Source of the DNA: Fulvivirga maritima
GTDB taxonomy: Bacteria; Bacteroidota; Bacteroidia; Cytophagales; Cyclobacteriaceae
Length of the DNA: 64,000 nt
Direction of reading: 5' to 3'
Assembly (NCBI RefSeq): GCF_021389955.1
Contig: NZ_CP089980.1
Location: forward strand, 62,001-126,000
The notes beneath the pieces are model-generated. The model was not told the origin of the DNA. It was given only the letters and a program-made list of their open reading frames with translations, and ran no database searches. Position 1 is the stretch's first letter. Each line of letters begins with the position of its first letter. Made by a program: the position numbers and the translations under genes. Of the stretch, positions 27,555 through 42,670 are shown in pieces.

Positions 27555-29194
27555 GTAACCGCATATATAACGTCCTTTTTCATACCCATACCGTAAGCGG
27601 ACTGGTAATCAGTGTAGCCCTTTTTGTTATTTTCTTCGCCGGTTCTATCAGCTTTTTCAGAGATGATATTGTAAACTGGGAGCGACAACAGCCCATAGTG
27701 AATAACACTCAAATGGATGTGGATTTTGATACCATGCTGGATTCCGTTGCCAACTCTAACCCGCTGTATGGTAGAGATATTACGCTTAGGCAGATCCATC
27801 AGGAACGCAGAGTAATGGTATCAATTACGCCATCAAAAGATACCACTGCTGCAGAAGCAGCTCAAGGCAGGGCCTTTTTCTATCAAGATCCGGCAACACA
27901 AAAGAGCTATAACTACTTTCAGGACATTACTCTGGGAGAATTCATCTATAGACTACATTTCTTCGCTCAGCTCCCCTACCCCTATGGTTACACACTGGCT
28001 GGGTTTGTCTCCTTCTTCTTTCTGTTCGCCATTATAACTGGTGTTATCGTACACTGGAAAAAAATTATTAGCAACTTCTACCTTTTCAGACCCTGGGCTA
28101 AGCTAAAGACAGTATGGACGGATGCGCATACCGCATTAGGATTAATAGGCCTTCCTTTTCAATTTATATATGCCGTTACCGGAGCCACACTCATTATTGG
28201 TTCCACTATTATGCTTAGCTCCGCCACCTCCTTTTTTTATGATGGCGACAGGCAGCAAATGTTTGAAGACTTATCTACTGATGTAGAAGCATTACCGTTC
28301 ACCAATACACCTACTGCCTACACAGGCTCTATTAATGCCCTGGTAGCACAGGCAGAAAGCCAGTGGGAAGGCGTGTATGCTGATAAAGTGCTGATTCAAA
28401 ACTATGGCGATGCAAATATGCAAGTGGCCGTAGACGTGAAACCAGTTAATAAAAAGCAGTTTTCAGGATTGGGACAAGTAGCCTTTAAAGCGAACAGCGG
28501 TGAAATCACCTTCAAAAGAACTCCTTATGGAGAAACTCCTTATATAGCCAGTGTTCAGGATTTCCTGATAAAGCTGCATTATGGGAATTTTGGTGGCTAC
28601 GCACTCAAAATCATTTATTTCTGCTTCGGTATTATTAGCTGCTTCGTTATTCTTTCCGGAGTACTCATATGGGTTGAAGCTCGCGATAAAAAGAGTAACA
28701 CCCCATTTAAAAGAAAAGCAAATGAATGGGTAGCCAGTATTTTTATGGCTATTTCACTGAGCATGTATCCGGTTACAGTGATAAGCTTTTTGGCTGTAAA
28801 GTTATTTAAAGATGTAAATGATCCCGCTCCGCACGTTTTTCTTTACAAAGTATACTTCCTGAGTTGGTTGGTGCTATCCATTTTGTTTTCTATCAAAAAG
28901 AATAACTATTTCACTAACAAATGGTGCCTGATCTCTGGTAGCATTTTAGGTTTTATGGTACCGATAGCCAACGGCATAGTTACTGGCGATTGGTTATGGA
29001 CTACCTTTAATGAACAGCAAATACAAATATTTGTGGTAGATGCCTTTTGGTTGACCACTTCAATAGTGACCCTTATCATCTGTTTTAAATTAAAGCCTGG
29101 CAAAAAGAAAACAGTAACCTCAACAGAAAGCACTACAAAAAAGACAAAACCTAAAAAACAGTTTAAGCCTAAAGTGAAAGCAAAAGCTGTTTAG
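27551..29194 (+). CDS. PepSY-associated membrane protein (PiuB-type iron-uptake reductase-like)
   Basis: The 547-residue protein starts FHTHTVSGLVISVALFVIFFAG, the first helix of PepSY_TM (PiuB) proteins, and contains RLHFFAQLPYPYGYTLAGF, WTDAHTALGLIGLPFQFIYAVTG and DFLIKLHYGNFGGYALKI with conserved His residues that could bind haem. PiuB-like proteins are thought to reduce or transport iron-siderophore complexes at the inner membrane. A basic tail ends the protein. Iron uptake is the probable role, copper the alternative. Confidence 0.85.
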   Translation: MSNRIYNVLFHTHTVSGLVISVALFVIFFAGSISFFRDDIVNWERQQPIVNNTQMDVDFDTMLDSVANSNPLYGRDITLRQIHQERRVMVSITPSKDTTAAEAAQGRAFFYQDPATQKSYNYFQDITLGEFIYRLHFFAQLPYPYGYTLAGFVSFFFLFAIITGVIVHWKKIISNFYLFRPWAKLKTVWTDAHTALGLIGLPFQFIYAVTGATLIIGSTIMLSSATSFFYDGDRQQMFEDLSTDVEALPFTNTPTAYTGSINALVAQAESQWEGVYADKVLIQNYGDANMQVAVDVKPVNKKQFSGLGQVAFKANSGEITFKRTPYGETPYIASVQDFLIKLHYGNFGGYALKIIYFCFGIISCFVILSGVLIWVEARDKKSNTPFKRKANEWVASIFMAISLSMYPVTVISFLAVKLFKDVNDPAPHVFLYKVYFLSWLVLSILFSIKKNNYFTNKWCLISGSILGFMVPIANGIVTGDWLWTTFNEQQIQIFVVDAFWLTTSIVTLIICFKLKPGKKKTVTSTESTTKKTKPKKQFKPKVKAKAV

Positions 29195-29206
29195 CAAGAA
29201 ATCTCT

Positions 29207-29242
29207 CCTCTCTCAGGTTCCTGCAGAGTTACCTGAGAGAGG
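29207..29242 (+). terminator. Terminator hairpin after PepSY operon
   Basis: CCTCTCTCAGGT (29207-29218) pairs perfectly with ACCTGAGAGAGG (29231-29242), 13 bases after the PepSY stop. Confidence 0.65.
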
Positions 29243-29490
29243 AAATTAACCCCTCCCTCCTGTACATATAAAAGGCTTATTTTGATAATTATGATTCATT
29301 CTTTTCATAAGTCTTAGCTCTCATTTCTCCATAGTTGCTTCTAAAGCACTCAAAACCAATCCAACAGACTGATTGACAATATTTTGAGTAAATATTCCTA
29401 TAAATCTATCATGATTAATAAACAGATAAATTTCCGTTTTTAAGAGATCAATTATTCTCCCACCTTGAAGCTTCACCATAATGACTGACT

Positions 29491-30240
29491 ATGAATAGAT
29501 TAGACGGAAAAGTAGCTTTAATAACCGGAGGAAATAGCGGAATAGGTCTGGCCACGGCCAGGCTTTTTGTACAACAAGGAGCTAAGGTGGCCATTACTGG
29601 TCGGCGGCAGGTAGCATTAGATGAAGCCATGGCACTTATCGGAGAGAATGCTATTTCTATTTTAGCAGATGCCTCCAGCATTTCTGCCAATAAAGAGGCC
29701 ATAAAGCAGACTGTAGAAGCATTTGGCAAGATCGATATTCTCTTCTTAAATGCAGGAATAGCCAAGTTCTTACCCATCAGCCATATTTCTGAAGAGCACT
29801 TTGATGAACATTTTAACACGAATGTAAAAGGGCCATTTTTCACCATAAAAGAAGCCTTGCCTTACATGAATGATGGCGGCACCATTATTAGCAATACTTC
29901 TGTAGCCGGCGGTAAGGGATATGTAGGCACTAGTGTATATGCCGCCACCAAAGCCGCCTTACGCTCTCTAAGTAGAGTCCTGGCCAATGAGCTGGCAGCT
30001 AAAAACATCAGAACCATGAGCATAGCTCCAGGACCAGTAACCACGGCCATATTCAGTAAAATGAAGCTCAGTAATGAAGAGTTCGATGTGATGGAACAGC
30101 AGTTTTTAGATCAGGTACCGCTGGGCCGCTTTGGCTCCTGCGATGAGATAGCTGAAACCGTGCTCTTTATGGCTTCTGATGCGGCCTCTTATATAAATGG
30201 AATAGAGCTGAATGTAGATGGAGGCATGAGTCAAGTATAA
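29491..30240 (+). CDS. SDR family oxidoreductase
   Basis: The 249-residue classical SDR has TGGNSGIG (12-19), LNAG (86-89), NTS (135-137) and YAATK (Tyr150, Lys154) and ends ELNVDGGMSQV. The ITGRR loop after strand 2 suggests NADP(H). It lies apart from the SDR island and has no adjacent regulator. A hairpin follows it. The closest annotation style is a glucose 1-dehydrogenase/FabG-like enzyme, but the substrate is not known. Confidence 0.87.
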   Translation: MNRLDGKVALITGGNSGIGLATARLFVQQGAKVAITGRRQVALDEAMALIGENAISILADASSISANKEAIKQTVEAFGKIDILFLNAGIAKFLPISHISEEHFDEHFNTNVKGPFFTIKEALPYMNDGGTIISNTSVAGGKGYVGTSVYAATKAALRSLSRVLANELAAKNIRTMSIAPGPVTTAIFSKMKLSNEEFDVMEQQFLDQVPLGRFGSCDEIAETVLFMASDAASYINGIELNVDGGMSQV

Positions 30241-30246
30241 GAAAAA

Positions 30247-30291
30247 GGCTGTATCAAAAGTAATTTTCAAATCATCCCTTTTGATACAGCC
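30247..30291. terminator. Bidirectional terminator hairpin
   Basis: GGCTGTATCAAAA (30247-30259) pairs perfectly with TTTTGATACAGCC (30279-30291) over 13 bp. It sits between the convergent SDR (plus) and REC-HATPase (minus) genes. Confidence 0.65.
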
Positions 30292-30327
30292 CATCAATTA
30301 CTCCTCCATAGTAGCGAGATTACTCAA

Positions 30328-31422
30328 TCAGCTATATTGGGGTAATAACAGCTGGATAGTAGTGCCTACTTTGGGTTCACTGGTAATACGCATTTCTCCA
30401 CCTAGCTCATCCAGCAATTCCTTAACTATGTATAAACCAATGCCTACAGTCTTGTAATCTGCATCAGCACTATAAAAAACATCAAATACATTAGGAATAG
30501 CATCCTTTTCAATACCAATTCCATTATCATCGATTTCCAGAATAATGTAGTTATTCTGTTTTACTGCCGTAAGTGTCATACGGTTAAGCTCTTTGGCGGT
30601 ATCTTTAAAAAGCATACTATTTCTAAAAATATGTCTTAATATCACCTTCAACACTTTTACATCCCCCTGCCAGGTAAGATCTTCTGAAATGTTATTTACC
30701 ATTACAACATCAAAAAAGCGACTTTCCAGCAATTCGAACCATACATTAGTAGTAAGCAACCTGAGGTTAATAACATCACTGTTTACTTCAGAAAGCTTCA
30801 ATTCTGCCATTTCTTTTATACAATGGCTTACATAACGCATTTGCTGCGTTTGCGACTTAATTTCTCTGTATTGGAAATTCCGATACTTAGCACACAACGC
30901 TTCATTCTGCATCAGATTAGTCATACCATCAATAGATTGAATTTTTTCATTCAGGTATTTCGTAAATTTTAATGCAAAAGAATTGGTGTCTATTTTAGGC
31001 ATTGACATAGCTTCTGCAGTTAGGTTTTTCACTCCACTGCTCACCCAGCTTCTATGCTTACTGAGTGCTTGTTTCACCACATCTGGTAAGAGATCAAGAT
31101 CTTTCTTAAGAACATAGTTATCCACCCCTAGTGCTAACAGTGACTTGGCTGTCTCCTCAGGCAGCGTGCCAGTAACCACTAAAAAAGGAACACTTCTGCG
31201 TTCTTTATGGCAAATCTGCAAAGCATCCATGCTGCTAAAATTTGCCATAGCATGATCCGAAATAATCAAATTAGGATTTGATTCATGAAGGGCGTCCAGG
31301 AACTCATCCCTGGTGTCTACACAATGTAGAGAGCAAGGAATCTGATTCTTTTTCAGAATCCGTTCCATCAAATAGAAGTCGTCTTTAGAGTCTTCTATTA
31401 CGAGAATATTTATAGTTTCCAT
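30328..31422 (-). CDS. Response regulator-HATPase hybrid lacking an obvious phospho-acceptor His box
   Basis: The 364-residue soluble protein has an N-terminal receiver domain: acidic pair Glu10-Asp11, phospho-acceptor Asp56 (ISDHAM), Thr84 and Lys106. After a linker (130-235) it has a HATPase_c domain (about 250-364) with the N-box (RNSMLF), EIDDNGIGIEKD and VGIGLYIVKELLDELGG. I see no clear H-box between them. It may be a two-component protein that uses a degenerate dimerisation domain, as in REC-HATPase proteins that act as light or redox sensors' partners. No cognate sensor lies beside it. Confidence 0.78.
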   Translation of the reverse strand: METINILVIEDSKDDFYLMERILKKNQIPCSLHCVDTRDEFLDALHESNPNLIISDHAMANFSSMDALQICHKERRSVPFLVVTGTLPEETAKSLLALGVDNYVLKKDLDLLPDVVKQALSKHRSWVSSGVKNLTAEAMSMPKIDTNSFALKFTKYLNEKIQSIDGMTNLMQNEALCAKYRNFQYREIKSQTQQMRYVSHCIKEMAELKLSEVNSDVINLRLLTTNVWFELLESRFFDVVMVNNISEDLTWQGDVKVLKVILRHIFRNSMLFKDTAKELNRMTLTAVKQNNYIILEIDDNGIGIEKDAIPNVFDVFYSADADYKTVGIGLYIVKELLDELGGEMRITSEPKVGTTIQLLLPQYS

Positions 31423-31757
31423 GACCCATTAGTAATTAGTAGTAGCGTATATATACAAAACTATTTCTTTGTTAAAATAATTTCCATAGGTACATACACG
31501 TATTTATACAAATTAAAATTATTTTAATTCAAATTAATTACTGATAAGAAAATTAATCGACTGATTATCAATAAATTACATGAAATGAGCAAAACTGCCA
31601 CCGCGAAACAGAGAAGCTAAAACCCTGATTTTGAGCCGTAATCAGGTAAAAATAAATTTATGATTTTTGTCAGGATTTTGAGTTACTACCAATGAATACC
31701 CTATGATCTATATTTAGACTTTGAAAAAGGAAAAATGAGACTATTTAGGAGGAGCTA
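31423..31757. other. Gene-free intergenic region
   Basis: The 335-base region between the REC-HATPase gene and the end of the PspA-polyamine operon is AT-rich. It contains one 7-bp stem, CCTGATT (31624-31630) with AATCAGG (31640-31646), and nothing else I can identify. It probably holds the promoter of the minus-strand REC-HATPase gene and the terminator of the operon. Confidence 0.4.
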
Positions 31758-32783
31758 TCACTCCCCTTCCTTCACCCCAAAAATAGTCTCGAGTTTAGAT
31801 TTTGTATTTCCATCAGAGATAAGGATAAGGTAATCTCCGGCATTAATGATCTGCCCTTTGTTAGGGTTCTTTATGATTTGTCCGTGGCTCACCATACCAA
31901 TGGCTACTGCATTAAACTTCTCTTTGAGTTCATGAAAAGCATCCATATACTCCGCCCCGGCCAGCTTATTATCTTTCAAAATTCTATATTGCTGAATATC
32001 AGAATCAAATCCCGAGATACTGGTTGTAATAAGGTCTTCAGTATAAGAAGCCACAAAAGGCTCAAATATATAGCTAGCCACCAGGCGAGAGGCTACTTCG
32101 CTCTGCGAGATGACATAGCGAATGCCTGCATTCACAAAAGTATCTTTGAGTTCCGGATTAATACAGGTAACTACAATATTACTATTAGGATATGCCTTTT
32201 TAAGGTTAAGCACAAATACCAGCGTTTTAGTATCTTCTTCAAAGTTTACAAATACGCCTTTAGTCTTTTTTATGTTCACCTTTTCATAGGCTTCCATATT
32301 ATAATAATCAGCAAACAGGCAGAAGCAATTATCTCCCGGAAACACATCTTTGATCAGGTCTACATCTGCTTTTGAGTTAACTACAAAAGCGATTTTATGG
32401 CCAGAGTTAAATATTTGCTCTGCCACCTGCCGACCAAAGGGATTCCAACCAATGATGATATAGTGTCCTTCAAAGTCTGTACCCCAGAAACCATATTTTT
32501 TCTTTTCCATATACCGATTAAATTTACTGGTGATTTCGCCTATTACATAGCCTAATACGCCTATACTACCTATAATTACAATTAAACCTACCACTTTCCC
32601 TATTGGTGTAACAGGATAAAAATCTCCGTACCCCACGGTGGTTAGCGTAACTATAGCATACCAAAAGGCATCTGAAATACTCTTAATATTAGCATCTGGC
32701 GATTGTTGTTCTACCACCCCGATCAGGCAAATAATGCCGATGTAGGCTAATGATGCTAATATGTAGTATTTCCATTTTTTCAT
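31758..32783 (-). CDS. K+ channel protein with RCK (TrkA-N/TrkA-C) domain
   Basis: The 341-residue protein has two membrane helices around a pore loop with the K+ selectivity filter TVGYGD (49-54), so it is a two-TM potassium channel. A cytoplasmic RCK_N Rossmann domain (about 105-235, starting HYIIIGWNPFG) and an RCK_C domain (about 250-335) follow. RCK domains gate such channels by nucleotide or ion binding. It is the last gene of the eight-gene PspA/polyamine operon, 16 bases after speD. Polyamines are known to block potassium channels, so a feedback link to the operon's polyamine is possible. Confidence 0.88.
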   Translation of the reverse strand: MKKWKYYILASLAYIGIICLIGVVEQQSPDANIKSISDAFWYAIVTLTTVGYGDFYPVTPIGKVVGLIVIIGSIGVLGYVIGEITSKFNRYMEKKKYGFWGTDFEGHYIIIGWNPFGRQVAEQIFNSGHKIAFVVNSKADVDLIKDVFPGDNCFCLFADYYNMEAYEKVNIKKTKGVFVNFEEDTKTLVFVLNLKKAYPNSNIVVTCINPELKDTFVNAGIRYVISQSEVASRLVASYIFEPFVASYTEDLITTSISGFDSDIQQYRILKDNKLAGAEYMDAFHELKEKFNAVAIGMVSHGQIIKNPNKGQIINAGDYLILISDGNTKSKLETIFGVKEGE

Positions 32784-32799
32784 CTATTGCTTATTTTTA

Positions 32800-33165
32800 T
32801 CATGAAGACCCCGGACAACTCTCAGTCATCTCAGGGGTTTCCCATTTCATTTCAAAATCCATAAACTGAACCTGCTCTTTAAACAGGTTAGTCTTCTCCT
32901 TGTTACAGCCGCTGAGCTCTATATAACTCCAGCCGTTTTGAGGGAAAGTGTGAATAGCCAGGTGAGATTCTGCCAGCAGCCATATAGCCGTGTATCCCTG
33001 AACCGGAAAGAAATACTCCGAGAAGTTAAGCACTTTAAATTCAGTGCTATTGAGCAACTTATCAAAAGTAATTTTCAAATATTCCGGCTCTATGGTCTTT
33101 ACCCATAACCTAAGGCTGTAGATATGCGCCGTTAATGATTTATGTTCTGGTGTAATATGCTCCAT
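32800..33165 (-). CDS. speD: S-adenosylmethionine decarboxylase proenzyme (SpeD, bacterial type)
   Basis: The 121-residue protein has the pyruvoyl-forming motif ESHLAIHTFP with Ser67 as the processing site, His72, and Cys87 in ELSGC. The spacing Ser-His (+5) and His-Cys (+15) is the same as in the Thermotoga enzyme (Ser63, His68, Cys83). It decarboxylates S-adenosylmethionine to give the aminopropyl donor for the neighbouring aminopropyltransferase. Length fits the class 1B prokaryotic SpeD. The gap to the aminopropyltransferase gene is 8 bases. Confidence 0.92.
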   Translation of the reverse strand: MEHITPEHKSLTAHIYSLRLWVKTIEPEYLKITFDKLLNSTEFKVLNFSEYFFPVQGYTAIWLLAESHLAIHTFPQNGWSYIELSGCNKEKTNLFKEQVQFMDFEMKWETPEMTESCPGSS

Positions 33166-33173
33166 AGCTTCGG

Positions 33174-34739
33174 TTAGTATAAATCCCAGTTTCCTTTTAA
33201 GTAATATTTATAAAGCACCGGATCATGTATTCGGTTAATTTTAACCGGCCCCTTATTGTCTCCTACATAAATATCTTTCCCAAATGAGGTGATCAGCTGC
33301 ATGGCTTCGTGGTCTATCCACTGAGTATCTACAGAAAACTGCAGTTTTTGAAGTGTACCTTTCAGATCATCATAAGGACTGGCTTTTTGACCTAAACTCC
33401 ACCCCCATTCGCCCATAGTAACTACCTGATTATGCAATGGAACAGTGTTAAAGCCTGCCTCTTTCATAGTCTTTACTATGCACTTAAAGGCTTTAGTCGC
33501 AAAATAAGGACTTCCGGCCTGAGTTACAATTACTCCCTGAGGCCTGAGCAACTTATAACAGCTTTTATAAAACTCATAACTATACAGCCTGCCTAGCTCC
33601 ACAGTACGAGGGTCTGGCAAGTCAATAAAAATAGCATCATAAAAAGAGGTATCCTTTTGAATATACTGATAGCCATCTGTATTAATCACCTTTACCTTCT
33701 CATTATCAAGAGAGTTATGATTCAGCTCTTTGAGTATAGGGTTATTTTGCCCTAACTCCGTCATAGCAGGATCAAGATCTACCAAAGTAATATTTTTAAC
33801 GCTAGGGTACTTCAGAATCTCTCTGGCAGCACAACCATCTCCACCACCTAATATCAGCACGTTTTCAGGGTGCGGATGCAAGGTGAGTGCCGGGTGCACC
33901 AAAGGCTCATGGTACATCACTTCATCTCTGGTAGAAAGCTGCTGATTACCGTTTAGGTACAGCCAATAATCATCTTTCCACTGAGTCATTACTATTCTTT
34001 GATAGGCCGTCTGCTCAGTAAATATTACCTTATCTTTATATTTAGACTGTTCTCCATATATAATAATAGGCTTGGTAACTAATGACCCTACCACCAGAAT
34101 AACTAAAATGGCTGAAGCCGAAGGCAGTAATACTTTTTTATCTGAATCGCTCATCACCTTTCTTAAAGAAATAATTAAAGCTATAGCTACCAGAAGATTT
34201 ACCAACCCTAATACAAATGGCGTATACATAAGCCCTAATACAGGCAAACCTATAAAAGCAAAGAAAACACCTCCTAAAAGGCTTCCATAATAGTCATTTT
34301 CAAGTATTCCTGAAATATTATACTTCAGCTCTTCAAACTCATTATTGATACGTACAACCAAAGGTACTTCCATACCTATGAGTGTGCCTATGCCTATAGA
34401 CAGAACATATATCAATGTTTCATATGAAGTACTCCATGCTGACATGGTATACACCGAAAGTGGCGCAAAAGAAACCAATAATGACAAGGCAAACTCCACA
34501 AATAGAAACCATTTAAGCAAATGCTGATTAAAGGCTTTACTTATGCGGCTACCAACCCCCATGGAGAAAAGCATCAGCGAGATAATCATAACCCACTGAA
34601 AAATAGAATCTCCTAAAAAATAGGTAGCGAGTGTAGAAAGTATGTATTCGGCTACTACGCCTGAAAAACCAGTAGCAAAAATGGCTGCTTTTAAAAGCGT
34701 TGATCTACGACCAAGCATATTTTTAATCCGTCCCTCCAA
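33174..34739 (-). CDS. speE: Membrane-anchored polyamine aminopropyltransferase (SpeE-like)
   Basis: The 521-residue protein has about seven membrane helices in its first 225 residues, then a spermidine-synthase-type catalytic domain (about 240-500). The dcSAM-binding motif GGGDG is at 298-302, followed by LVDLDPAM, then DLPDP (373-377), LYSYEFY and GEWGWSLG. The active-site features are intact, so it should transfer an aminopropyl group to an amine acceptor. The membrane-embedded N-terminus sets it apart from cytosolic SpeE and is typical of the PspA-linked form. It is flanked by speD and a DUF350 gene in one operon. Confidence 0.9.
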   Translation of the reverse strand: MEGRIKNMLGRRSTLLKAAIFATGFSGVVAEYILSTLATYFLGDSIFQWVMIISLMLFSMGVGSRISKAFNQHLLKWFLFVEFALSLLVSFAPLSVYTMSAWSTSYETLIYVLSIGIGTLIGMEVPLVVRINNEFEELKYNISGILENDYYGSLLGGVFFAFIGLPVLGLMYTPFVLGLVNLLVAIALIISLRKVMSDSDKKVLLPSASAILVILVVGSLVTKPIIIYGEQSKYKDKVIFTEQTAYQRIVMTQWKDDYWLYLNGNQQLSTRDEVMYHEPLVHPALTLHPHPENVLILGGGDGCAAREILKYPSVKNITLVDLDPAMTELGQNNPILKELNHNSLDNEKVKVINTDGYQYIQKDTSFYDAIFIDLPDPRTVELGRLYSYEFYKSCYKLLRPQGVIVTQAGSPYFATKAFKCIVKTMKEAGFNTVPLHNQVVTMGEWGWSLGQKASPYDDLKGTLQKLQFSVDTQWIDHEAMQLITSFGKDIYVGDNKGPVKINRIHDPVLYKYYLKGNWDLY

Positions 34740-34762
34740 TATTTACAGTCCCTCTTTTACTA

Positions 34763-35632
34763 TTACAAGCACCAGGTAATCAGCACTGAACCTCCTATAT
34801 AAGCAAAGGCCTCTACTATGGCTGCTCCAATATTTGGCTTCTCCTGATTGATAATCTCATCAGTTAAATTCTCACCAGGCAGTAAAATTTTATCTGTAAT
34901 ATACCGCATTACAGGTAGTAATATTAGACCAACTACTACTTCTAGTCCAGCTTCAGAAAGGGTGGCTCCCCAGCTCTCAAACTCTCCCATCAGGCCAAAT
35001 TTGATAAGGTTACCCATAGCTACTAACGCTCCTGCAAAACCAATACCCACAGCCACATTATCTTTTTCTATATGCTCATGGATGTCATAAGGAGTGATCA
35101 GGTTATATACCCAACCAGTAAGTAAAAGGGCTAACTGCCCCAAGAACCAAAATGCAAGCGCTGAAATAATTCCCGCAGATATGCTGCTGCTTTCTCCGGT
35201 TACGGCTCCAAATATTATAAGACCTGAAGCTATAGAAACGGCTCCTTCTACTATTCCTGTACCCTCATTCTGATCCTCTATTATTTCCTTTCTTACAGAA
35301 AAACGACTGAGCAACACCCTATCTGTAATAATGATAGAAACATTGAGCAATACTATAGCTAAGGCTCCATAGATGGAGATAACGATGACATCATTCCAAA
35401 GTCCTTGAGACGGACCAACAATAGCACTACCAATGGCTATAAGTAATCCCACAAAATAGCCTACATGTGATAAGCTAAAAGCCAGATTATCCTTTTTAAC
35501 CAGCTCCTCTTTTACGTTGATGGTATTATGTATTAACTGATAGACAAACTTGCCTATTAAAAAGAAAATGAAAGCCAGTGCTATGTATATAATGGCCTCA
35601 TATACAACAAATGAAAATTCAGAGAGACTCAT
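34763..35632 (-). CDS. DUF350 family membrane protein (YjfL-like)
   Basis: The 289-residue integral membrane protein contains two DUF350 repeats (about 50-140 and 190-285), with repeated short stretches such as LAFSLSHVGYFVGLLIAIGSA and VAVGIGFAGALVAMG. DUF350 proteins such as E. coli YjfL are linked to PspA-like proteins and polyamine-related enzymes. It could be a channel or a membrane partner for the PspA coat. The function is unknown. Confidence 0.87.
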   Translation of the reverse strand: MSLSEFSFVVYEAIIYIALAFIFFLIGKFVYQLIHNTINVKEELVKKDNLAFSLSHVGYFVGLLIAIGSAIVGPSQGLWNDVIVISIYGALAIVLLNVSIIITDRVLLSRFSVRKEIIEDQNEGTGIVEGAVSIASGLIIFGAVTGESSSISAGIISALAFWFLGQLALLLTGWVYNLITPYDIHEHIEKDNVAVGIGFAGALVAMGNLIKFGLMGEFESWGATLSEAGLEVVVGLILLPVMRYITDKILLPGENLTDEIINQEKPNIGAAIVEAFAYIGGSVLITWCL

Positions 35633-35662
35633 AAATTATTATATTTTTCAATATGGAGTGTA

Positions 35663-36526
35663 TTATTTACCAAATCCGCCACTTCTAGACCTAAACGATG
35701 ATCCTGATGATGATCTTGAAGAACTACGAGAGGTTCTACCGTAGCTACTACCAGAAGAATACTTTCTGGAGCTAGACGAAGAAGAAGATCTGGCTACGCG
35801 GGTTCTTACCTTATCTTTAAATGTAGATGGCTTAGAGGCCCAGGTAGTGCTTCTACCAGAACTGGAAGAGGTGTAATTCTTTGTTCCATATATTGTTCTA
35901 CCAGAAGGACCATAATATGATCGGCCAGTACCATAGTAGCCTCCATGGTAATCATCCCAATAAGATCTTCTTACAGGATAACTCATCATGTTGAACATAG
36001 AACGCATGAAAGCATATTTACCATAAAACTCCCAGAAGGAGCCTCCGTTTCTATTTACCCAATGTCCATATTTTTCATTACCTACATAGTTAGTATAACC
36101 TGCAGGAGCGGCTTGTTTATGCACAACCCCATCTTTTTTAGAGGCTATTTCCATACCCATATCATTTAAATGCTGCTTAAAAAAACCAGCTGATACAGGG
36201 TACCACTCTGTTTCTTTTGCCTGCACAGTATCAGGCTTCTCTACTATTACTCTATACTTATGCTTGTAGGTATCTCCTGACTCATCGGCATCCATATCAT
36301 ACAATATGATAGAGAAGTTTTGCTCGTCAGAAAGAGATTTTATTAACTCATCCACAGGAGACTTTTCCCAGTTCTCCATTTGCGATGAGCCTCCGTAATC
36401 ATTACGCCGGTTATTACAAGCTTTAATAACTACAAAGCCTATTATTACCACAATAATAAGTTTTACAAATCCATTGTTCATTTTTTTCTTTTTAGTGTTA
36501 GTGGGGCCATTTTCATGATCTGCCAC
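35663..36526 (-). CDS. Membrane-anchored protein with Ser/Gly-rich tail, DUF1190 (YjfM)-like
   Basis: The 287-residue protein has a basic N-terminus, one membrane helix (about 21-38), an extracytoplasmic domain, then a tail of about 90 residues rich in Ser, Gly, Arg and Tyr ending SFRSRSGGFGK. The ending and overall layout resemble the DUF1190 proteins (YjfM, YgiB) that occur with PspA- and DUF350-family genes, but the identity is from pattern memory. It is 6 bases after the DUF4178 gene. Confidence 0.6.
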   Translation of the reverse strand: MADHENGPTNTKKKKMNNGFVKLIIVVIIGFVVIKACNNRRNDYGGSSQMENWEKSPVDELIKSLSDEQNFSIILYDMDADESGDTYKHKYRVIVEKPDTVQAKETEWYPVSAGFFKQHLNDMGMEIASKKDGVVHKQAAPAGYTNYVGNEKYGHWVNRNGGSFWEFYGKYAFMRSMFNMMSYPVRRSYWDDYHGGYYGTGRSYYGPSGRTIYGTKNYTSSSSGRSTTWASKPSTFKDKVRTRVARSSSSSSSRKYSSGSSYGRTSRSSSRSSSGSSFRSRSGGFGK

Positions 36527-36532
36527 TCCCCT

Positions 36533-37087
36533 TCATGTATCGCCCGAAGGTAAAATATTAGAGATTTCAAATTCTTTTATGTATTTACCTGCTGAAGCCT
36601 CAAACTCCTTCTCTCCCCATTGCTCCACGGTAAGGATGTACTCTCCCTTATCATCTTCATAATCCCAAGACACAAACTCTTCCCAATCATCACTTCTGCC
36701 TATATCATGAAAATATCCGGGAGATTCTTCTTCCAGATAATAAGTTCTGCCATCATAAGTGATCTCAGAAGGGGGCTTTTGCTCAGTCATAAGCTTATCT
36801 ACCACCTCAGAGCCTAGCGCCCTTACTTTTATTTTTGATGAAACAGAAAGTTCGAGCTCATCATCTTCTTCTAAAGACAAAAAGAGTGATTTTTCTCCGT
36901 TACTAATTTTATACTCTCTGGTAAAGTAATTATCGCCCCAGTCGTATTCATAAATATTATTCACCTCCCAGGTAGAAAGGTCATAATCGAATACAAACCC
37001 AACATCTAAGTCCTGCACTCTGATATCTGTGCTATCATAGTGAGGCTCTTTCTCTTTTTTCTTAAAGAAGTTATCAAACAAGCCCAT
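36533..37087 (-). CDS. DUF4178 domain-containing protein
   Basis: The 184-residue soluble acidic protein has the DUF4178 pattern: DLDVGFVFDYDLSTWEVNNIYEYDWGDNYFTREYKI, then a beta-rich repeat LFLSLEEDDELELSVSSKI. DUF4178 proteins commonly stand beside PspA-like and polyamine-enzyme genes and are thought to work in the same membrane-related pathway. It follows pspA by 15 bases. E. coli YjfK is a likely functional counterpart. Confidence 0.8.
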   Translation of the reverse strand: MGLFDNFFKKKEKEPHYDSTDIRVQDLDVGFVFDYDLSTWEVNNIYEYDWGDNYFTREYKISNGEKSLFLSLEEDDELELSVSSKIKVRALGSEVVDKLMTEQKPPSEITYDGRTYYLEEESPGYFHDIGRSDDWEEFVSWDYEDDKGEYILTVEQWGEKEFEASAGKYIKEFEISNILPSGDT

Positions 37088-37102
37088 TTGCTAATTATTT
37101 AA

Positions 37103-37810
37103 TTACTGTCCTTTATTTTTCATCTTAGCTTTCAGCTCTTCTAATGAAGAAGACGCTTTAAATGATTTCTCATCAAGAGCAGAGTCTATCTCATCATCAA
37201 GACTTTTGCTTTCATTAGCGATGTCTCCATAAGCCTCTGCCATAGCCTCTTGCTGCGCTACTTTGTCTTTCATTTTTTCTAGCATACTCACTGTACTAGA
37301 GCTGTCTATGCCTGACATTTGCTTATTGATTTTTTGAGTAGCCTGGCTCACGCGTGAACGTGCTTTTAGCGTACGCAATTCATTTTCATATCTGGTGATA
37401 GAAGATCTCAACTTCTTTACGTTAGCATCTAACTGAGCTATGTTGGTCTCAAATCTTTGCACCTCTTCTTCACTTCTTTTGGCACTTTCTGTAGCCTCTT
37501 CTTTTCTGGTAAGTGCTTCAGTAGCTAACCTATCAGCCTCAGCAGGATCTAAATCACCTTTTTCAGCTCTTTGTAAAAGCATAATAGCCTTTTGCTCGTA
37601 AGATTCTGAAGTAGCTTTATGGTCATTAAGCTCTCTCTTACTTCTAATAGCCATCGCTTTTACCTCTGCTAAGGCTTGTAGACTCTTATCAAGATCCACT
37701 TTAAGGTCTCTTATGCCCTGCTCAGTCATTTTGATAGGGTCTTCTAATTTATCTATTGCCGAATTTGTTTCGGCTTTACCTATGGTAAATAACCTGCTAA
37801 ATATTCCCAT
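37103..37810 (-). CDS. PspA/IM30 family membrane-stress protein (YjfJ-like)
   Basis: The 235-residue protein is almost all heptad coiled coil, starting MGIFSRLFTIGKAETNSAIDKLEDPIKM, the PspA/IM30 amphipathic start. Length and structure fit the ESCRT-III-like superfamily that oligomerises on damaged or stressed membranes. It is the second gene in the operon, 11 bases after the YbjN-like gene. It is probably of the YjfJ subclass, which partners with DUF350 and polyamine genes rather than PspBC. Confidence 0.9.
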   Translation of the reverse strand: MGIFSRLFTIGKAETNSAIDKLEDPIKMTEQGIRDLKVDLDKSLQALAEVKAMAIRSKRELNDHKATSESYEQKAIMLLQRAEKGDLDPAEADRLATEALTRKEEATESAKRSEEEVQRFETNIAQLDANVKKLRSSITRYENELRTLKARSRVSQATQKINKQMSGIDSSSTVSMLEKMKDKVAQQEAMAEAYGDIANESKSLDDEIDSALDEKSFKASSSLEELKAKMKNKGQ

Positions 37811-37821
37811 TCTTCTTTTAA

Positions 37822-38217
37822 TTAATTTTTTGAAAATTCTATTATATCAGCTGCATACTCACTTAGCAATAACTCTAATGAGTTTAGCGTTCCTTCCAGC
37901 TCATTAAGATCAAGATTCTCCAGCTGTAAAGTATCTCTAAATAGCACTTTAGATCCGGACTCATCCAAAACAAAAGCACCATGAATAATCTCTCTGTTCT
38001 TCTTAAGCAGCTCTTCAAAAAGCTCTAATGACTTGTTGTTTATTTCAAAAAGCACCCCTTCTATAATTAAAATAGGGTCTTCGCAGTCAATAATAAGGTT
38101 GGCTATACCTGAGCCATCTTTTTCCACTACAAATAATTCTTCTTGAGGGTCTTCATGAAGCAGCGTAAACTCAAGCTCCAACAAAAACGATTTTACTTTA
38201 TCAAAATTTGCACTCAT
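37822..38217 (-). CDS. YbjN/DUF2170-like chaperone-fold protein
   Basis: The 131-residue acidic protein (residues 1-130 mix beta strands and helices) ends with LFRDTLQLENLDLNEL and LLLSEYAADII, which recall the YjfI (DUF2170) and YbjN proteins of the type III chaperone fold. It is the first gene of the operon, so its upstream region 38218-38361 should hold the operon promoter. The position as PspA partner matches YjfI beside YjfJ in E. coli. Confidence 0.68.
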   Translation of the reverse strand: MSANFDKVKSFLLELEFTLLHEDPQEELFVVEKDGSGIANLIIDCEDPILIIEGVLFEINNKSLELFEELLKKNREIIHGAFVLDESGSKVLFRDTLQLENLDLNELEGTLNSLELLLSEYAADIIEFSKN

Positions 38218-38361
38218 TTTTCACTAGTATTTTAATATAACAAGTTTATATATTTATCGACAAACCACATAAATTTTATAGCAAATTTGGGTCATTGGCA
38301 ATATTTGAATTTAAACAGAACTATCTGATGATCAGTAGAACGCTTATATTCATTACCTACC

Positions 38362-39600
38362 CTACTTTTCATTCTTTATAGCCGCCAACCTGGCCAAAAG
38401 TGGTGGATGCGAGTAATTTACAAAAACATATGCCGGGTGCGGATATAAATTACTTAAATTATCTACGGAGAGTTTCTTTAATGCGGTAGCCAAAGCATCT
38501 CCATCATATGTTTCTCTCGCATAAGCATCGGCTTCATACTCATTTTTTCTGCTAAAAATATTCATAGCTATGCCCAGCAAGGTACTAATAGGAGAATATA
38601 ATAGACCGAAAGCCAATAAATTTAAATGCACGCCCATTTGCTCGGCACCAAGAGCAAGAGAAAGGTTTTCATTATAAATCATCGTAGACATAACGAATAG
38701 CATTACTCCTATTTGCATAATAGAAATAGCAAAGCCGTAAATAATGTGCTTTTTCTTAAAATGTCCCACCTCGTGAGCCAGTACCGCCACAAGCTCTTCT
38801 GTGGTATGGTTATTAATTAAAGTATCATATAACACTATTTTTTTCTTCTTTCCTAAACCAGAAAAGAATGCATTTGCCTTGTTAGATCTTTTTGATCCAT
38901 CTATTACATAAATACTGTCTAACGGAAAAGCTATCTTCTCGCTATAAGCCTGTATTGCACTTTTGAGTTCACCATCTTCTAACGGCGTTAGCTTATTAAA
39001 AAGAGGAAGAATAAGTGAAGTGTAAAACATATTTACAAACAAGATAAACACAGAAGCCACCAGCCAAAAATACAACCAGAAGTTCTCACCGATATTCAAT
39101 ATCAGATATAATAAGGCACCCACCAGCACCACTCCCAGCACGGCAGAAAGCGCGTATCCCTTTATTTTATCCAGCACAAAAGTTTTAGGTGTAGTTTTAT
39201 TAAAGCCGAAACGCTCTTCTATCACAAACGTGCTATACCATTGAAATGGGATGTTAATAACATCAGACACCACATATAAAACTCCAAAATTGGCTAATGC
39301 CAGCCATATTTCATTTTCAAAATACGGCCTCAGCAGCTGATCGATATAACCAAAACCACCAAGCGAAAGCATTAAAAATGAAATGATAAAACTAAAGGAT
39401 GAGGTAATAAATGAAAATCTGCCAGAGACTTTCTGGTATTCCTGAGACTTTTTATACTTCTCTTCATCATAAAATGAAGCTATTTCTTCAGGCAAATCCA
39501 CCCTCTTAGACTTATGATTGAGGTAATCTAAAAGCTGATCTACCGCAAAGTCTATAGTAATAATTCCTAAAATAATATAAAGAATAATATTTGGTGCCAT
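38362..39600 (-). CDS. M48 family metallopeptidase, Ste24 (CAAX prenyl protease 1)-like
   Basis: The 412-residue protein has about seven membrane helices and the M48A zinc motif HEVGH (276-280), with a third ligand at NEYEADAYA and the conserved SNKANAFFSGLG before the active site. This is the full-length Ste24 layout. Bacterial members act as membrane-embedded quality-control proteases. It is 144 bases upstream of the PspA operon on the same strand and could be functionally linked to membrane stress. Confidence 0.87.
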   Translation of the reverse strand: MAPNIILYIILGIITIDFAVDQLLDYLNHKSKRVDLPEEIASFYDEEKYKKSQEYQKVSGRFSFITSSFSFIISFLMLSLGGFGYIDQLLRPYFENEIWLALANFGVLYVVSDVINIPFQWYSTFVIEERFGFNKTTPKTFVLDKIKGYALSAVLGVVLVGALLYLILNIGENFWLYFWLVASVFILFVNMFYTSLILPLFNKLTPLEDGELKSAIQAYSEKIAFPLDSIYVIDGSKRSNKANAFFSGLGKKKKIVLYDTLINNHTTEELVAVLAHEVGHFKKKHIIYGFAISIMQIGVMLFVMSTMIYNENLSLALGAEQMGVHLNLLAFGLLYSPISTLLGIAMNIFSRKNEYEADAYARETYDGDALATALKKLSVDNLSNLYPHPAYVFVNYSHPPLLARLAAIKNEK

Positions 39601-39787
39601 TAAGAGTATCTAAGTAGTTAAAGCTCAAATATAATAAAGTTGACCGAGAAGCCCCTTTCTCAATTTGAAACAAAATCCCAATAAGAGAATAAAACAAGCC
39701 TTATTAATACTTCAAAAAACTGAAATACAGCACTTTACAAAACATGGTATGCAAATTGGTACCGACATGTCAAATCCTTAAAGTTAA

Positions 39788-39916
39788 ATGAATAAACGTA
39801 CAAATATATTTGGGAAAATAAAGGACGCCATTAAGCACCCTTACTTTATCCCTGTAGTGGTCTTCATCCTGGGAGCAATCACTATTATGGTAGAAATATT
39901 ATTACTGGTATCATAA
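39788..39916 (+). CDS. Small single-span membrane protein, 42 residues
   Basis: The ORF starts MNKRTNIFGKIKDAIKHPYF and ends in a single membrane helix (FIPVVVFILGAITIMVEILLLV). It lies 109 bases before sdhC on the same strand and is too short for usual gene callers. The pattern of a basic N-terminus followed by one helix is typical of small regulatory membrane proteins. No family is recognised. Confidence 0.4.
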   Translation: MNKRTNIFGKIKDAIKHPYFIPVVVFILGAITIMVEILLLVS

Positions 39917-39954
39917 GTCTATTTAGAATGTTTTAAAATAGCTGACCATGATTG

Positions 39955-39982
39955 TTTGATTAGTTTTTGGCTTGTACCTTTG
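39955..39982 (+). promoter_or_regulatory. Probable sdh operon promoter
   Basis: TACCTTTG (39975-39982) matches the TAnnTTTG -7 consensus. TTTG at 39955-39958 (16-nt spacer) or TTG at 39952-39954 (20-nt spacer) may serve as -33. The leader to the sdhC ATG at 40025 is about 40 bases. Confidence 0.5.
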
Positions 39983-40024
39983 ACAACGTCAAAATGTTAC
40001 AACTTAAACTATCAAATTATACAA

Positions 40025-40709
40025 ATGAGTTGGTTCACGAACGCTATTTCTAGCTCCTTGGGAAGAAAGCTTCTCATGGCTTTAACGGGATTATTCCTTA
40101 TCGTATTTTTAGTGGTTCACTTAATTGGTAATTTCCAATTATTACACCACGATGGTGGCCAGGCATTTAACACATATGCCCGATTTATGACCTCCAATCC
40201 TATTATCAAAACTACATCCTACCTACTTTATGCCACTTTCATTATCCACATTGTATGGGGTATTGGATTGGTAGTGAGTAACAAAAAGGCTCGTCCTGTA
40301 GGATATAATGTATCTAAAGGTTCTACAAATAGTACCTGGAGCTCACGAAACATGGGCTTGTTAGGAACTATTATTTTCATCTTTTTGGTAATACATCTGA
40401 AAAACTTTTGGTATGAAATGCACTGGGGGAGGGATCCCTACGGTAACGTATGCTGGTGAGTCTTACAATGACCTTTACACGGTAACTGCTGCGGCTTTTG
40501 CCGAATGGTGGATTGTAGCTTTCTACACTATTTCTATGCTTGCTCTAATGTTTCACCTATATCATGGGTTTAGCAGTGCCTTTCAAACTTTGGGTCTCAA
40601 TCACCCTAAATACAATCCTTTAATTAAAGGGGTGGGATATGGATTTGCCATTATTGTTCCGGCACTTTTCGCAGTGATTCCCATTATAATGTTTTATCAA
40701 AGTATTTAA
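40025..40709 (+). CDS. sdhC: Succinate dehydrogenase cytochrome b subunit (SdhC), split by +1 frameshift
   Basis: The first part (MSWFTNAISSSLGRKLLMAL, FLVVHLIGNFQLLHHDGGQ) and second part (ESYNDLYTVTAAAFAEWWIV, MFHLYHGFSSAFQTLGLNHP) belong to one five-helix cytochrome b558-type protein of about 227 residues. The frame is lost in a G5 run at 40425-40429; deleting one G joins them as FWYEMHWGGIPTVTYAG. The His residues in HLIGNFQLLHH and FHLYHGF should bind two haem b groups. It is upstream of sdhA and sdhB, and no sdhD exists in this type. The break looks like a sequence error, because Sdh is central to respiration. Confidence 0.85.
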
Positions 40710-40735
40710 AAAAAGAACTCTTAAAAGCTTGATAG

Positions 40736-42670
40736 ATGAAATTAGATTCTAAAATACCAGAAGGCCCAATAGCCGAGAAATGGTCAAAGCATAAATTCAA
40801 TATAAAATTAGTAAACCCTGCCAATAAGCGAAAGTATGACATCATTGTGGTCGGTACAGGTTTGGCAGGAGCTTCAGCCGCAGCCTCTTTTGGTGAACTA
40901 GGTTATAACGTGAAAGCCTTCTGCTTTCAGGATAGCCCCAGAAGAGCGCACAGTATTGCTGCACAAGGTGGTATAAACGCTGCTAAAAACTATCAGAATG
41001 ATGGTGACAGCGTTTTCCGTTTGTTCTACGATACCGTAAAAGGAGGTGACTACAGATCAAGAGAAGCTAACGTACACAGACTTTCTGAAGTAAGTGTAGA
41101 CATTATAGACCAGTGTGTGGCTCAAGGTGTTCCTTTTGCCAGAGAATACGGTGGTTTATTAGCTAACAGATCTTTTGGTGGAGCGCAGGTTTCCAGAACC
41201 TTCTACGCCAGGGGCCAAACCGGACAACAGCTTCTACTAGGTGCCTACAGTGCGCTAAGCAGACAAATCGCTAATGGTAAAGTAAAAATGTACCCTCGCG
41301 AAGAAATGCTTGACCTGGTAATGGTAGACGGAAAAGCCAGAGGTATTGTAACCAGAAACCTGATCACAGGTAAAATAGAGTCACATAGTGCTCATGCCGT
41401 AGTTTTGGCTACGGGAGGTTACGGTAACGTATTCTACCTTTCTACTAATGCTATGGGCTCTAATGCTACCGCAGCATGGAGAGCACATAAAAAGGGCGCT
41501 TACTTTGCTAACCCTTGCTTCACGCAGATACACCCTACCTGTATTCCTGTTTCTGGAGATCACCAGTCAAAATTAACTTTGATGTCTGAATCTCTAAGAA
41601 ATGATGGACGCGTATGGGTTCCTAAAGAAGTATCTGATGCTGAAAAAATCAGAAGAGGAGAATTAAAACCTACTGATCTTCCTGAAGAAAAAAGAGATTA
41701 TTATCTGGAAAGAAGATATCCTGCATTTGGTAACCTTGTACCTCGTGATGTGGCGTCTCGTAACGCTAAAAACATGTGTGACGATGGCAAAGGGGTTTCT
41801 AAATCAGGCTTAGCAGTATTTCTTGATTTTGCTGATGCTATTAAAAGAGATGGCAGAAGCACTATAGAAGGAAAATACGGTAACTTGTTTGACATGTATC
41901 AGCAAATTACCGGTGAAAATCCTTACGAAACACCGATGATGATCTATCCTGCTGTTCACTACACCATGGGTGGACTTTGGGTAGACTATAACCTGATGAC
42001 TACCGTAGACGGTTTATACTCTCTCGGAGAATGTAACTTCTCTGATCACGGAGCTAACCGATTAGGAGCCAGTGCATTAATGCAAGGTTTAGCAGACGGA
42101 TACTTCGTAATTCCTTACACTATCGGCGATTACTTAGCGAAAATGTCTTATGATAAGGTACCTACTGATCATGAAGCATTTAAACAAGCTGAAGCTGATG
42201 TAAAAGGCAAAATCGAAAAACTGCTTTCTATAAAAGGAGAAAAAACCGTTGATGATTTCCACAAAGCACTAGGAAATATTATGTGGGAATACTGCGGTAT
42301 GTCTAGAAACGAAGCTGGCCTGAAAAAGGCAAAAGTAGAAATACAAAAATTAAGAGAGGAATTCTGGCAAAATGTTAATGTGATTGGATCAAGCGATGAA
42401 TTAAACATCAGTCTTGAAAAAGCTAACAGGGTGGCTGATTTCCTTGAATTGGGTGAATTAATGGTAGATGATGCACTCCACAGATCTGAGTCTTGTGGTG
42501 GTCATTTCCGTGAAGAATCACAAACCGAAGAAGGAGAGGCTAAAAGAAAAGATGATGAATTTTCTTTTGTTTCAGCTTGGGAATATACTGGCCCTGAAGC
42601 TCCTGCTACCTTACATAAGGAAGAACTGGTTTTTGAAAATGTTAAATTGACCCAAAGAAGCTATAAATAA
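40736..42670 (+). CDS. sdhA: Succinate dehydrogenase flavoprotein subunit (SdhA)
   Basis: The 644-residue protein has the FAD-binding [17 protein letters not shown] motif (about 40-56), [13 protein letters not shown] with the His that attaches FAD covalently, [22 protein letters not shown] and the C-terminal [25 protein letters not shown]. It oxidises succinate to fumarate in the TCA cycle at the inner membrane with SdhB and SdhC. The gap to sdhC is 26 bases. The layout matches the Bacteroidota Sdh/Frd enzyme that lacks SdhD. Confidence 0.96.

Follow-up and report, generated by a model that had tools for sequence, protein, structure and literature searches.

An operon of Fulvivirga maritima that may aminopropylate the C-terminal lysine of a membrane-anchored protein

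What does an aminopropyltransferase that is built into the membrane modify? The question is raised by a minus-strand operon of eight open reading frames (ORFs), 31758-38217, in a 64,000-nt stretch of the Fulvivirga maritima genome (the window, at G000:C1:62001-126000 in a single-contig genome of 6.39 Mb; coordinates are window positions unless a contig or locus is named). In transcription order, the genes encode a CesT_Tir_1 protein, PspA, a DUF4178 protein, a lipoprotein that we call LipX, a DUF350 protein, an aminopropyltransferase with a seven-transmembrane (seven-TM) N-terminal domain (mSpeE), the S-adenosylmethionine (AdoMet) decarboxylase SpeD, and a K+ channel, separated by 16, 8, 23, 30, 6, 15, and 11 bp. 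The original prediction for this locus had described a single eight-gene operon with gaps of 6-30 bp, which agrees with the ORF coordinates, and its assignments of PspA, DUF4178, DUF350, SpeD, the aminopropyltransferase, and a two-helix RCK channel all have Pfam or NCBIfam matches. It had called the first gene YbjN/DUF2170-like; this gene does match YbjN (E 2e-6), but CesT_Tir_1 is the better match (E 5e-54), and no DUF2170 match was listed at a limit of E 10, with filters that drop most weak hits.

We propose, at slightly less than an even chance, that the operon is an envelope-protein modification system in which mSpeE aminopropylates the C-terminal Lys of a membrane-anchored protein. SpeD, in the cytosol, would make decarboxylated AdoMet, and mSpeE would move the aminopropyl group onto the side-chain amine of the C-terminal Lys of LipX. 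The aminobutyl side chain of Lys corresponds chemically to half of a putrescine molecule, and the modified tail would therefore finish with a spermidine-like residue. The membrane-side partners would be PspA, the CesT/Tir-like protein, DUF4178, and DUF350, and the K+ channel would be a linked effector or sensor. We infer from sequence which group is the acceptor, on which side of the membrane the reaction runs, what it yields, and whether the channel has a role. A free polyamine is an improbable product, because the partner protein ends in Lys where the enzyme is mSpeE and in Gly-Gly where it is an ATP-grasp ligase, and because the window's genome shows no recognised pyridoxal phosphate (PLP)-type decarboxylase that forms putrescine. 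The original prediction had aminopropylation replacing an ATP-grasp ligase, for which the eight ORFs have no Pfam or NCBIfam match; this substitution looks right, but the free polyamine that it envisaged as the product is improbable given these tails.

The comparison covers a 296-genome sample of the phylum, in which mSpeE was defined as a match at E <= 1e-80 that reaches the N-terminal domain. An mSpeE reaching the membrane domain is present in 22/296 genomes, all 22 of which have an AdoMet decarboxylase; some mSpeE match occurs in 80/296, the weaker ones, in larger membrane proteins, lying outside the counts. Fifty-one loci came from a scan of genome contigs with mSpeE, and loci from the G-numbered genomes, plasmid loci, and the window were added for profile searches; the loci behind all our counts are not phylogenetically independent. 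Type A (49 mSpeE genes) has LipX or PspA near mSpeE and no amine oxidase, and type B has SpeD, a long DUF4178 protein, a short DUF350 protein, mSpeE, and mostly a flavin adenine dinucleotide (FAD) amine oxidase. As type A is partly defined by LipX or PspA nearby, its 49/49 score for LipX is not used alone as evidence; the argument uses instead the accounting of tails in the 22 genomes and an automated tail search with random anchors. All eight genes stand in identical order in 17/49 type-A neighbourhoods (window included; L079 with a rhomboid inserted), so the set goes beyond chance, and the neighbourhood is conserved outside this genome, a check that the original prediction had proposed. Type-A loci with at least 4.5 kb upstream (n = 44) have DUF350 in 42, DUF4178 in 41, and PspA and CesT in 29; those with at least 1.6 kb downstream (n = 45) have SpeD in 24, the channel in 21, and both in 20, a count that omits the channels of L067 (other strand) and L082 (beyond the length rule). 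The closest mSpeE relative found is that of Fulvivirga sediminis (95% identity). As a side observation, a rhomboid-family gene is inserted in the operon at L047, L079, and L082.

The evidence for the acceptor begins with LipX. Its lipobox Cys37 and C-terminal Gly-Lys are invariant in 40/40 aligned sequences, and the tail of this alignment is rich in Ser, Arg, and Gly, mostly RSR[GS]GG[FY]GK. Lys is the last residue in 50/50 distinct LipX proteins, against 81/622 background ORFs of at least 200 aa (13%) and 0-25% of the proteins in the other operon families (mSpeE 2/81, SpeD 2/42, DUF350 0/68, DUF4178 9/45, PspA 4/34, CesT 8/32, channel 2/26). Synonymous variation in the tail codons (GGA/GGC/GGT, six Arg codons) shows that the conservation acts on protein and not on DNA. 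LipX occurs in 6/296 genomes, all six among the 22 with mSpeE, and five of the eight genomes with a lone mSpeE encode LipX elsewhere, ending in GK, one of them with a second paralogue ending in RRK. A natural fusion (L082:5009-6421) joins DUF4178, one TM segment, and LipX, which suggests that DUF4178 and LipX lie on opposite sides of the membrane. The LipX start may be an internal ATG (35663-36481), to judge from homologues such as L037. On plasmids, tblastn gave no LipX match, although a LipX-like protein of the Alteromonas plasmid L093 came up in a profile search. The description of this gene as a DUF1190-like tail protein did not hold up: LipX belongs to no Pfam family, PF06693 (DUF1190) is not matched, and hhalign returned a non-significant E of 0.005-0.006, with the alignment on the lipobox only (E 0.0057). 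What LipX does have in common with DUF1190 is position and tail style.

If the Lys tail is the mSpeE acceptor, operons without LipX should carry another membrane-anchored protein that ends in Lys. This expectation was borne out in type B, where LipX is absent and an unannotated ORF of ~45-75 residues with a single TM segment, unrelated to LipX, lies between DUF4178 and DUF350 and ends in FYHK, YYHK, PSHK, and similar. A script found such Lys-ended microproteins in 11/11 type-B loci examined (it skipped L091 and L092), and L092, L143, L091, L180, L181, and L179, two further Novosphingobium plasmids among them, were added later, as were 5/5 held-out Bacteroidota genomes. Later endings include ..PESGK on an Ensifer plasmid, ..PSFGK in G231, and ..YGSHK at two Burkholderia loci. 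The L148 microprotein is fused to the DUF4178 protein, and the Novosphingobium L094 copy is annotated as a hypothetical protein. In an alignment of 15 microproteins, eight share a GN[RQ]-C-C core, and the rest share little beyond the TM segment and the last residue. The automated search for a Lys-tailed single-TM neighbour succeeded for 46/49 type-A and 9/13 intact type-B mSpeE genes, compared with 4/30 random anchors. On direct inspection, a Lys-tail ORF was seen at each of the type-B misses (L147, L148, L151, and L091), and the cause was traced for three of the four: the fusion in L148, overlap with another ORF in L091, and a hydropathy just below the limit in L151.

Across the 22 mSpeE genomes, six have LipX ending in GK, 14 have a Lys-tailed microprotein, and two (G064 and G158) have neither. 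Both of the latter carry an ATP-grasp ligase beside mSpeE and a membrane protein ending in Gly-Gly; the G064 ligase was tied to YjfC by profile, and the G158 ligase was read from its similarity to that of G064. Outside Bacteroidota, 13/14 DUF1190 proteins examined end in Gly-Gly. An annotated or detected ATP-grasp neighbour is present for 11/14, and 10 of these 11 end in GG, the exception being Azospirillum (GFSGS); no ATP-grasp gene was detected at two Photobacterium DUF1190 loci, and the Rhizobium CB782 neighbour lacks annotation. Bare DUF1190/ATP-grasp pairs occur in E. coli (ygiBC), Paracoccus, Rhodobacter, Sulfitobacter, and Falsirhodobacter. YjfC carries the RefSeq name 'peptide--spermidine ligase', an activity that a 2023 study by Pederick et al. 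reportedly assigns to YgiC and YjfC. Glutathionylspermidine synthetase joins spermidine to a C-terminal glycine. By analogy, a spermidine-to-Gly ligase would suit a Gly-Gly tail as an amine aminopropyltransferase would suit a Lys tail. Separately, the Vibrio plasmids L087 and L089 carry DUF2170-PspA-YjfK-DUF350-DUF1190-ATP-grasp operons.

Both enzymes keep catalytic residues. The window mSpeE passes NCBIfam PRK03612 aminopropyltransferase (569 bits, cut-off 472) and has the GGGDG and DLPDP motifs (the latter at residues 373-377) that the original prediction had pointed out, together with GEWG at 443-446. Its active-site positions hold D301, D321, D355, D373, D376, and Y276, which we take to be the canonical acids and Tyr of spermidine synthase. 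Among 80 aligned mSpeE (49 type A, 21 type B, and 10 other), the DxxDP aspartate pair is kept in 80/80, and every type-A and other copy has Asp or Glu at both positions of the nucleotide-binding pair, 301 and 321. This pair is lost (Asn301; Pro, Ala, or Val at 321) in 8/21 type-B copies, all of them second cassettes beside an amine oxidase at loci that also have an intact type-A copy (L049, L050, L054, L060, L072, L073, L076, and L080). The lid Tyr, present in 8/8 canonical SpeE, is found in 0/80 mSpeE, whose lid loop has Leu, Met, Phe, or Ile in its place, followed by G-[EDQN]-W-[GAS]. The region of this Tyr presumably covers putrescine in spermidine synthase structures. In the HMMER alignment, DLxDP and WGW are common to mSpeE and thermospermine synthase 6bq2, which does have the lid Tyr. 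SpeD is above the Pfam AdoMet_dc cut-off (44 bits) and below that of NCBIfam SAM_DCase_Bsu (39 versus 76 bits), and its Ser-His-Cys triad, noted in the original prediction, is kept as Ser67 and His72 in 41/41 and Cys87 in 38/41 aligned homologues. The broader view of a conserved envelope-associated module whose SpeD and mSpeE appear to keep their catalytic residues thus stands. As an aside, in G005, G087, and G066 (L102, L101, and L108) the SpeD match is part of a larger ORF (366-446 aa) with a SpeE match as well, which looks like a SpeD-SpeE fusion and does not lie beside mSpeE.

We read the mSpeE topology from hydropathy and Lys/Arg (K+R) counts, with TM borders set by hand. In 59 type-A and other mSpeE, the mean K+R is 3.47 ahead of TM1 and then 0.00, 2.75, 0.07, 2.83, and 3.29 for loops 1, 2, 3, 4, and 6, respectively, and type B agrees over the same six regions (3.00, 0.24, 2.10, 0.52, 2.71, and 2.71). 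On account of this pattern and the seven TM segments, the catalytic domain is predicted to be extracytoplasmic, on the side of the LipX or microprotein tails. A further enzyme follows one kind of tail: with -HK tails, 16/18 loci have an amine oxidase gene on the mSpeE strand and no more than 1.5 kb from mSpeE, compared with 1/54 for other tails and 1/4 for the non-LipX loci whose tails lack -HK (ESGK, SFGK, NRVK, and RHGK). A pattern search found a twin-arginine-like motif within 75 residues in 18/18 amine oxidases (the L091 ORF start is unreliable), so these enzymes should work outside. A fuller periplasmic pathway is conceivable, although we place it below an even chance. In it, mSpeE would form the spermidine-like tail residue, a twin-arginine translocation (Tat)-exported oxidase would optionally oxidise it on His-Lys tails, and in ATP-grasp operons the ligation of spermidine to a C-terminal Gly-Gly would yield a product of the same kind. 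The polycationic tail, connected with PspA and the K+ channel, would serve as an envelope sensor on a tether or as a ligand of the channel.

Several observations weigh against C-terminal Lys modification by mSpeE. None of the eight acid-lost type-B copies has a single-TM Lys-tailed partner in the automated search (0/8), with a multi-TM Lys-ended ORF near the L050 copy; the same search succeeded for only 3/10 other mSpeE and missed 4/13 intact type-B genes. The Lys-tail ORF of L143 is ~1.8 kb upstream of mSpeE, L176, from a viral collection, has no Lys tail nearby, and LipX was not found in three of the eight lone-mSpeE genomes (L065, L075, and L084). Two small families from outside the operon are also often Lys-ended (HTH-S24 6/9, AAA giant 4/10), and the link between -HK tails and the oxidase partly follows clades. 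The acceptor site could, given the motifs of 6bq2, also suit a longer free polyamine. The last membrane crossing is the weak point of the topology, as type A has 3.5 K/R after TM7 as well. An outside catalytic domain needs decarboxylated AdoMet beyond the cytosol, for which we know of no precedent, and should TM7 not span the membrane, the modification would need to take place before export.

The rival closest to the original prediction is that mSpeE makes a free polyamine (spermidine or longer) at the membrane, modulating the channel, PspA, or lipids, and that the Lys tails serve otherwise; we consider it unlikely but worth weighing. It is close to a published suggestion that such systems monitor polyamine concentration, and it fits an mSpeE above the NCBIfam cut-off for polyamine aminopropyltransferases, the motifs common to mSpeE and 6bq2, and a channel that travels with SpeD. 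In addition, G064 (and apparently G158) has mSpeE, SpeD, and a spermidine-ligase-like ATP-grasp protein together, and a free product is likely there. However, this explanation has to accommodate the loss of the lid Tyr from all 80 mSpeE and leaves the enzyme-matched Lys and Gly-Gly tails unexplained. In the window's genome, no putrescine-forming decarboxylase was recognised among the families searched, which did not include pyruvoyl arginine decarboxylase, and uptake is possible. A free spermidine pathway as the sole explanation was rejected on the content of the window's genome (Spermine_synth 1, AdoMet_dc 1, Orn_Arg_deC_N 2, OKR_DC_1 0), where the two Orn_Arg_deC_N matches are LysA, above the cut-off, and a LysA-like protein below it; nspC is above its cut-off in 0/22 mSpeE genomes. 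A homospermidine synthase in the window's genome was considered and dropped as unproven; the deoxyhypusine-synthase-like (DS-like) match reaches 138.6 bits in Pfam and stays below all seven listed NCBIfam cut-offs. This DS-like gene (G000:C1:3277757-3282182, L153) is clustered with CtlX, arginine-deiminase-like, and nitrilase-like proteins.

Another possibility, which we rate as improbable, is that mSpeE aminopropylates a lipid headgroup or other small membrane amine and that the Lys tail serves to dock or sort the complex. The membrane domain, the altered acceptor site, and the lack of a recognised putrescine source would all suit such an acceptor, but the operon has no lipid enzyme by Pfam or NCBIfam, and the pairing of a Gly-Gly tail with an ATP-grasp ligase fits a substrate better than a docking signal. 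E. coli Lpp combines an N-terminal lipid anchor with a C-terminal Lys. That LipX is a tether of this Braun-lipoprotein kind, its Lys joined to peptidoglycan by an L,D-transpeptidase while mSpeE acts elsewhere, is very improbable: its lipid anchor and invariant C-terminal Lys match the Lpp layout, and the window's genome has two YkuD-domain matches (at least one in 17/22 mSpeE genomes), but YkuD was not found in 5/22, including three of the six with LipX (G088, G087, and G005), and neither the restriction of LipX to genomes with mSpeE (6/6) nor the microprotein tails would be explained.

The K+ channel has a less certain place in the system. TVGYGD is invariant in 11/11 aligned channels, and SpeD is also present at 20/21 channel-bearing type-A loci with enough sequence; L082, outside the 45-locus count, has the channel without SpeD. 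At E <= 1e-30, the family of two-TM channels with an RCK domain occurs in 5/296 genomes, beside mSpeE in G000 and G066 and without mSpeE in G146, G283, and G279. The inclusion of the channel in the module, as first proposed, is favoured by its travelling with SpeD, but the 3/5 genomes without mSpeE count against the linkage. Other genomes have a six-TM Ion_trans channel within the operon or close to it, as at L140 and with the second cassettes of six loci, six of the eight that hold an acid-lost mSpeE. That two channel types keep the same company suggests that K+ flux matters to the module. A channel subfamily common to this operon and DUF2170-type operons was considered and rejected for Rhizobium, whose channels score 61 and 67 bits against 60 for the control, E. 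coli Kch; it may still apply to Photobacterium, whose channels score 86 and 100.

The features of the operon are collected in Table 1.

Table 1. Features of the operon and its upstream gap, in window coordinates
Feature	Position	Strand	Basis
CesT/Tir-like protein (CesT_Tir_1, PF22550), operon's first gene	37822..38217	-	Pfam 182 bits; kept upstream of PspA
PspA/IM30 family protein	37103..37810	-	Pfam PspA_IM30 156 bits
DUF4178 protein, probably cytoplasmic	36533..37087	-	Pfam 90 bits; L082 fusion
LipX lipoprotein, outside any Pfam family	35663..36526	-	Lipobox Cys37, 40/40
LipX C-terminal tail codons RSRSGGFGK, proposed aminopropyl acceptor	35666..35692	-	Gly-Lys 40/40; Lys 50/50
DUF350 (YjfL) double-repeat membrane protein	34763..35632	-	Pfam 185 bits, two stretches
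mSpeE seven-TM N-terminal domain, residues 1-235	34035..34739	-	Hydropathy and K/R pattern, 80 relatives
mSpeE aminopropyltransferase domain, residues 236-521	33174..34034	-	PRK03612, active-site columns, PDB spermidine synthases
SpeD, divergent AdoMet decarboxylase	32800..33165	-	Pfam AdoMet_dc 44 bits; Ser67/His72/Cys87
K+ channel, two-TM with RCK domain, MthK-like	31758..32783	-	Ion_trans_2 and TrkA_N; MthK best PDB match
Intergenic stretch preceding operon, probable promoter region	38218..38361	-	Position only

The operon is flanked on the same strand by an M48 protease gene 144 bp upstream and a gene for a response-regulator/kinase protein 335 bp downstream. Only F. sediminis (L034) has both flanks in matching places; kinase-like matches occur at other places in L045, L046, L064, and L078. 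Sigma-70-like matches in 31400-39700 are near background (37 versus a shuffled mean of 28.5, sd 5.7), and terminator-like sites number 13 (background mean 5.2, sd 2.4), none of them in the gap 3' of the operon. No RNA family was above its gathering score within 30000-40500. Horizontal transfer of the operon was considered and rejected, as G+C is even across 28000-42000 (0.34-0.43). About 6.7 kb upstream of the operon, at 44921-45709 on the minus strand, lies a helix-turn-helix (HTH)-S24 regulator gene related to one that is divergent to CesT-PspA in several relatives. The window's genome also has a second PspA-CesT/Tir pair (G000:C1:455000-472000, L134), accompanied by a flotillin-like protein, a DUF3686/AAA giant, and a divergent HTH-S24 regulator, which resembles the published band-7 group. 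On the Alteromonas mediterranea plasmid L093, an mSpeE-SpeD operon has a TelA-like 'toxic anion resistance' protein before DUF4178, in the usual place of PspA.

The operon class itself is already published, and the arrangement seen here, an mSpeE core with SpeD and the channel, is a variant of it. The available part of a 2024 mSystems paper (PMC11237479) describes, as its second group, CesT/Tir-PspA operons with a 7TM-spermine synthase; like the window, they have the CesT/Tir and PspA dyad, DUF4178, a lipoprotein, and an 8TM DUF350, but they comprise six to seven genes, sometimes with a ribbon-helix-helix (RHH) factor, against eight here. LipX is equated with its lipoprotein Ctha_1186 by position alone. 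The same part of PMC11237479 describes a K+ channel, AdoMet decarboxylase, DUF350, DUF1190, and DUF2491 for the ATP-grasp group and variants, and the word 'Lysine' is absent from its main text. In the available part of a second paper, DUF2170 proteins resemble CesT/Tir-type chaperones, with structural support for the comparison (PMC10948618). Phrases for protein aminopropylation had no match in the open-access literature, a corpus that mostly leaves out subscription papers and preprints. The Lys-tail rule and the aminopropylation of a C-terminal Lys are thus provisionally new, as far as these searches go.

Set beside E. coli yjfIJKLMC/ygiBC, the operon shares PspA and DUF350 (yjf), a lipoprotein with a Ser/Gly-rich tail, and an enzyme of polyamine chemistry, but it has SpeD and mSpeE in place of the ATP-grasp ligase, a LipX tail ending in Gly-Lys where that of DUF1190 ends in Gly-Gly, and CesT_Tir_1 as the first gene instead of DUF2170. 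The gene-by-gene parallel with yjfI-J-K-L-M-C that was originally drawn is accordingly sound for PspA/YjfJ (hhalign E 2e-11) and DUF350/YjfL (5e-9) but not significant for CesT/YjfI (0.026), LipX/YjfM (0.005), or DUF4178/YjfK (0.064). Homology of the CesT/YjfI and DUF4178/YjfK pairs was rejected on these values; with the E. coli sequence alone, CesT/YjfI gave E 0.0007 at 11% probability. With SpeE (1iy9 and 1inl) and thermospermine synthase (6bq2), mSpeE shares the catalytic domain, a GGGDG-type motif, DxxDP, and the Tyr before the acceptor site, but unlike cytosolic SpeE it has a seven-TM domain and a replaced lid Tyr before G-[EDQN]-W.

A 2019 Biochem J paper by Li et al. reportedly linked AdoMet decarboxylase genes to a membrane-fused SpdSyn and to a polyamine-independent role. 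That system also reportedly places SpeD beside a membrane-fused aminopropyltransferase; the C-terminal Lys of a partner protein as acceptor is the proposal made here. If true, the Lys-tail reading would name an acceptor for this polyamine-independent role and make the question testable. It would also bring envelope proteins among the targets of polyamine-type modification, for which YgiB/YjfM with YgiC/YjfC of E. coli K-12 would be a parallel. A C-terminal residue matched to the enzyme would give a simple rule for finding more substrates. In hypusination of eIF5A, a defined Lys carries a polyamine-derived group, and in Braun lipoprotein the C-terminal Lys is modified; the system proposed for the window would differ from both in its enzymes, its donor, and its compartment.

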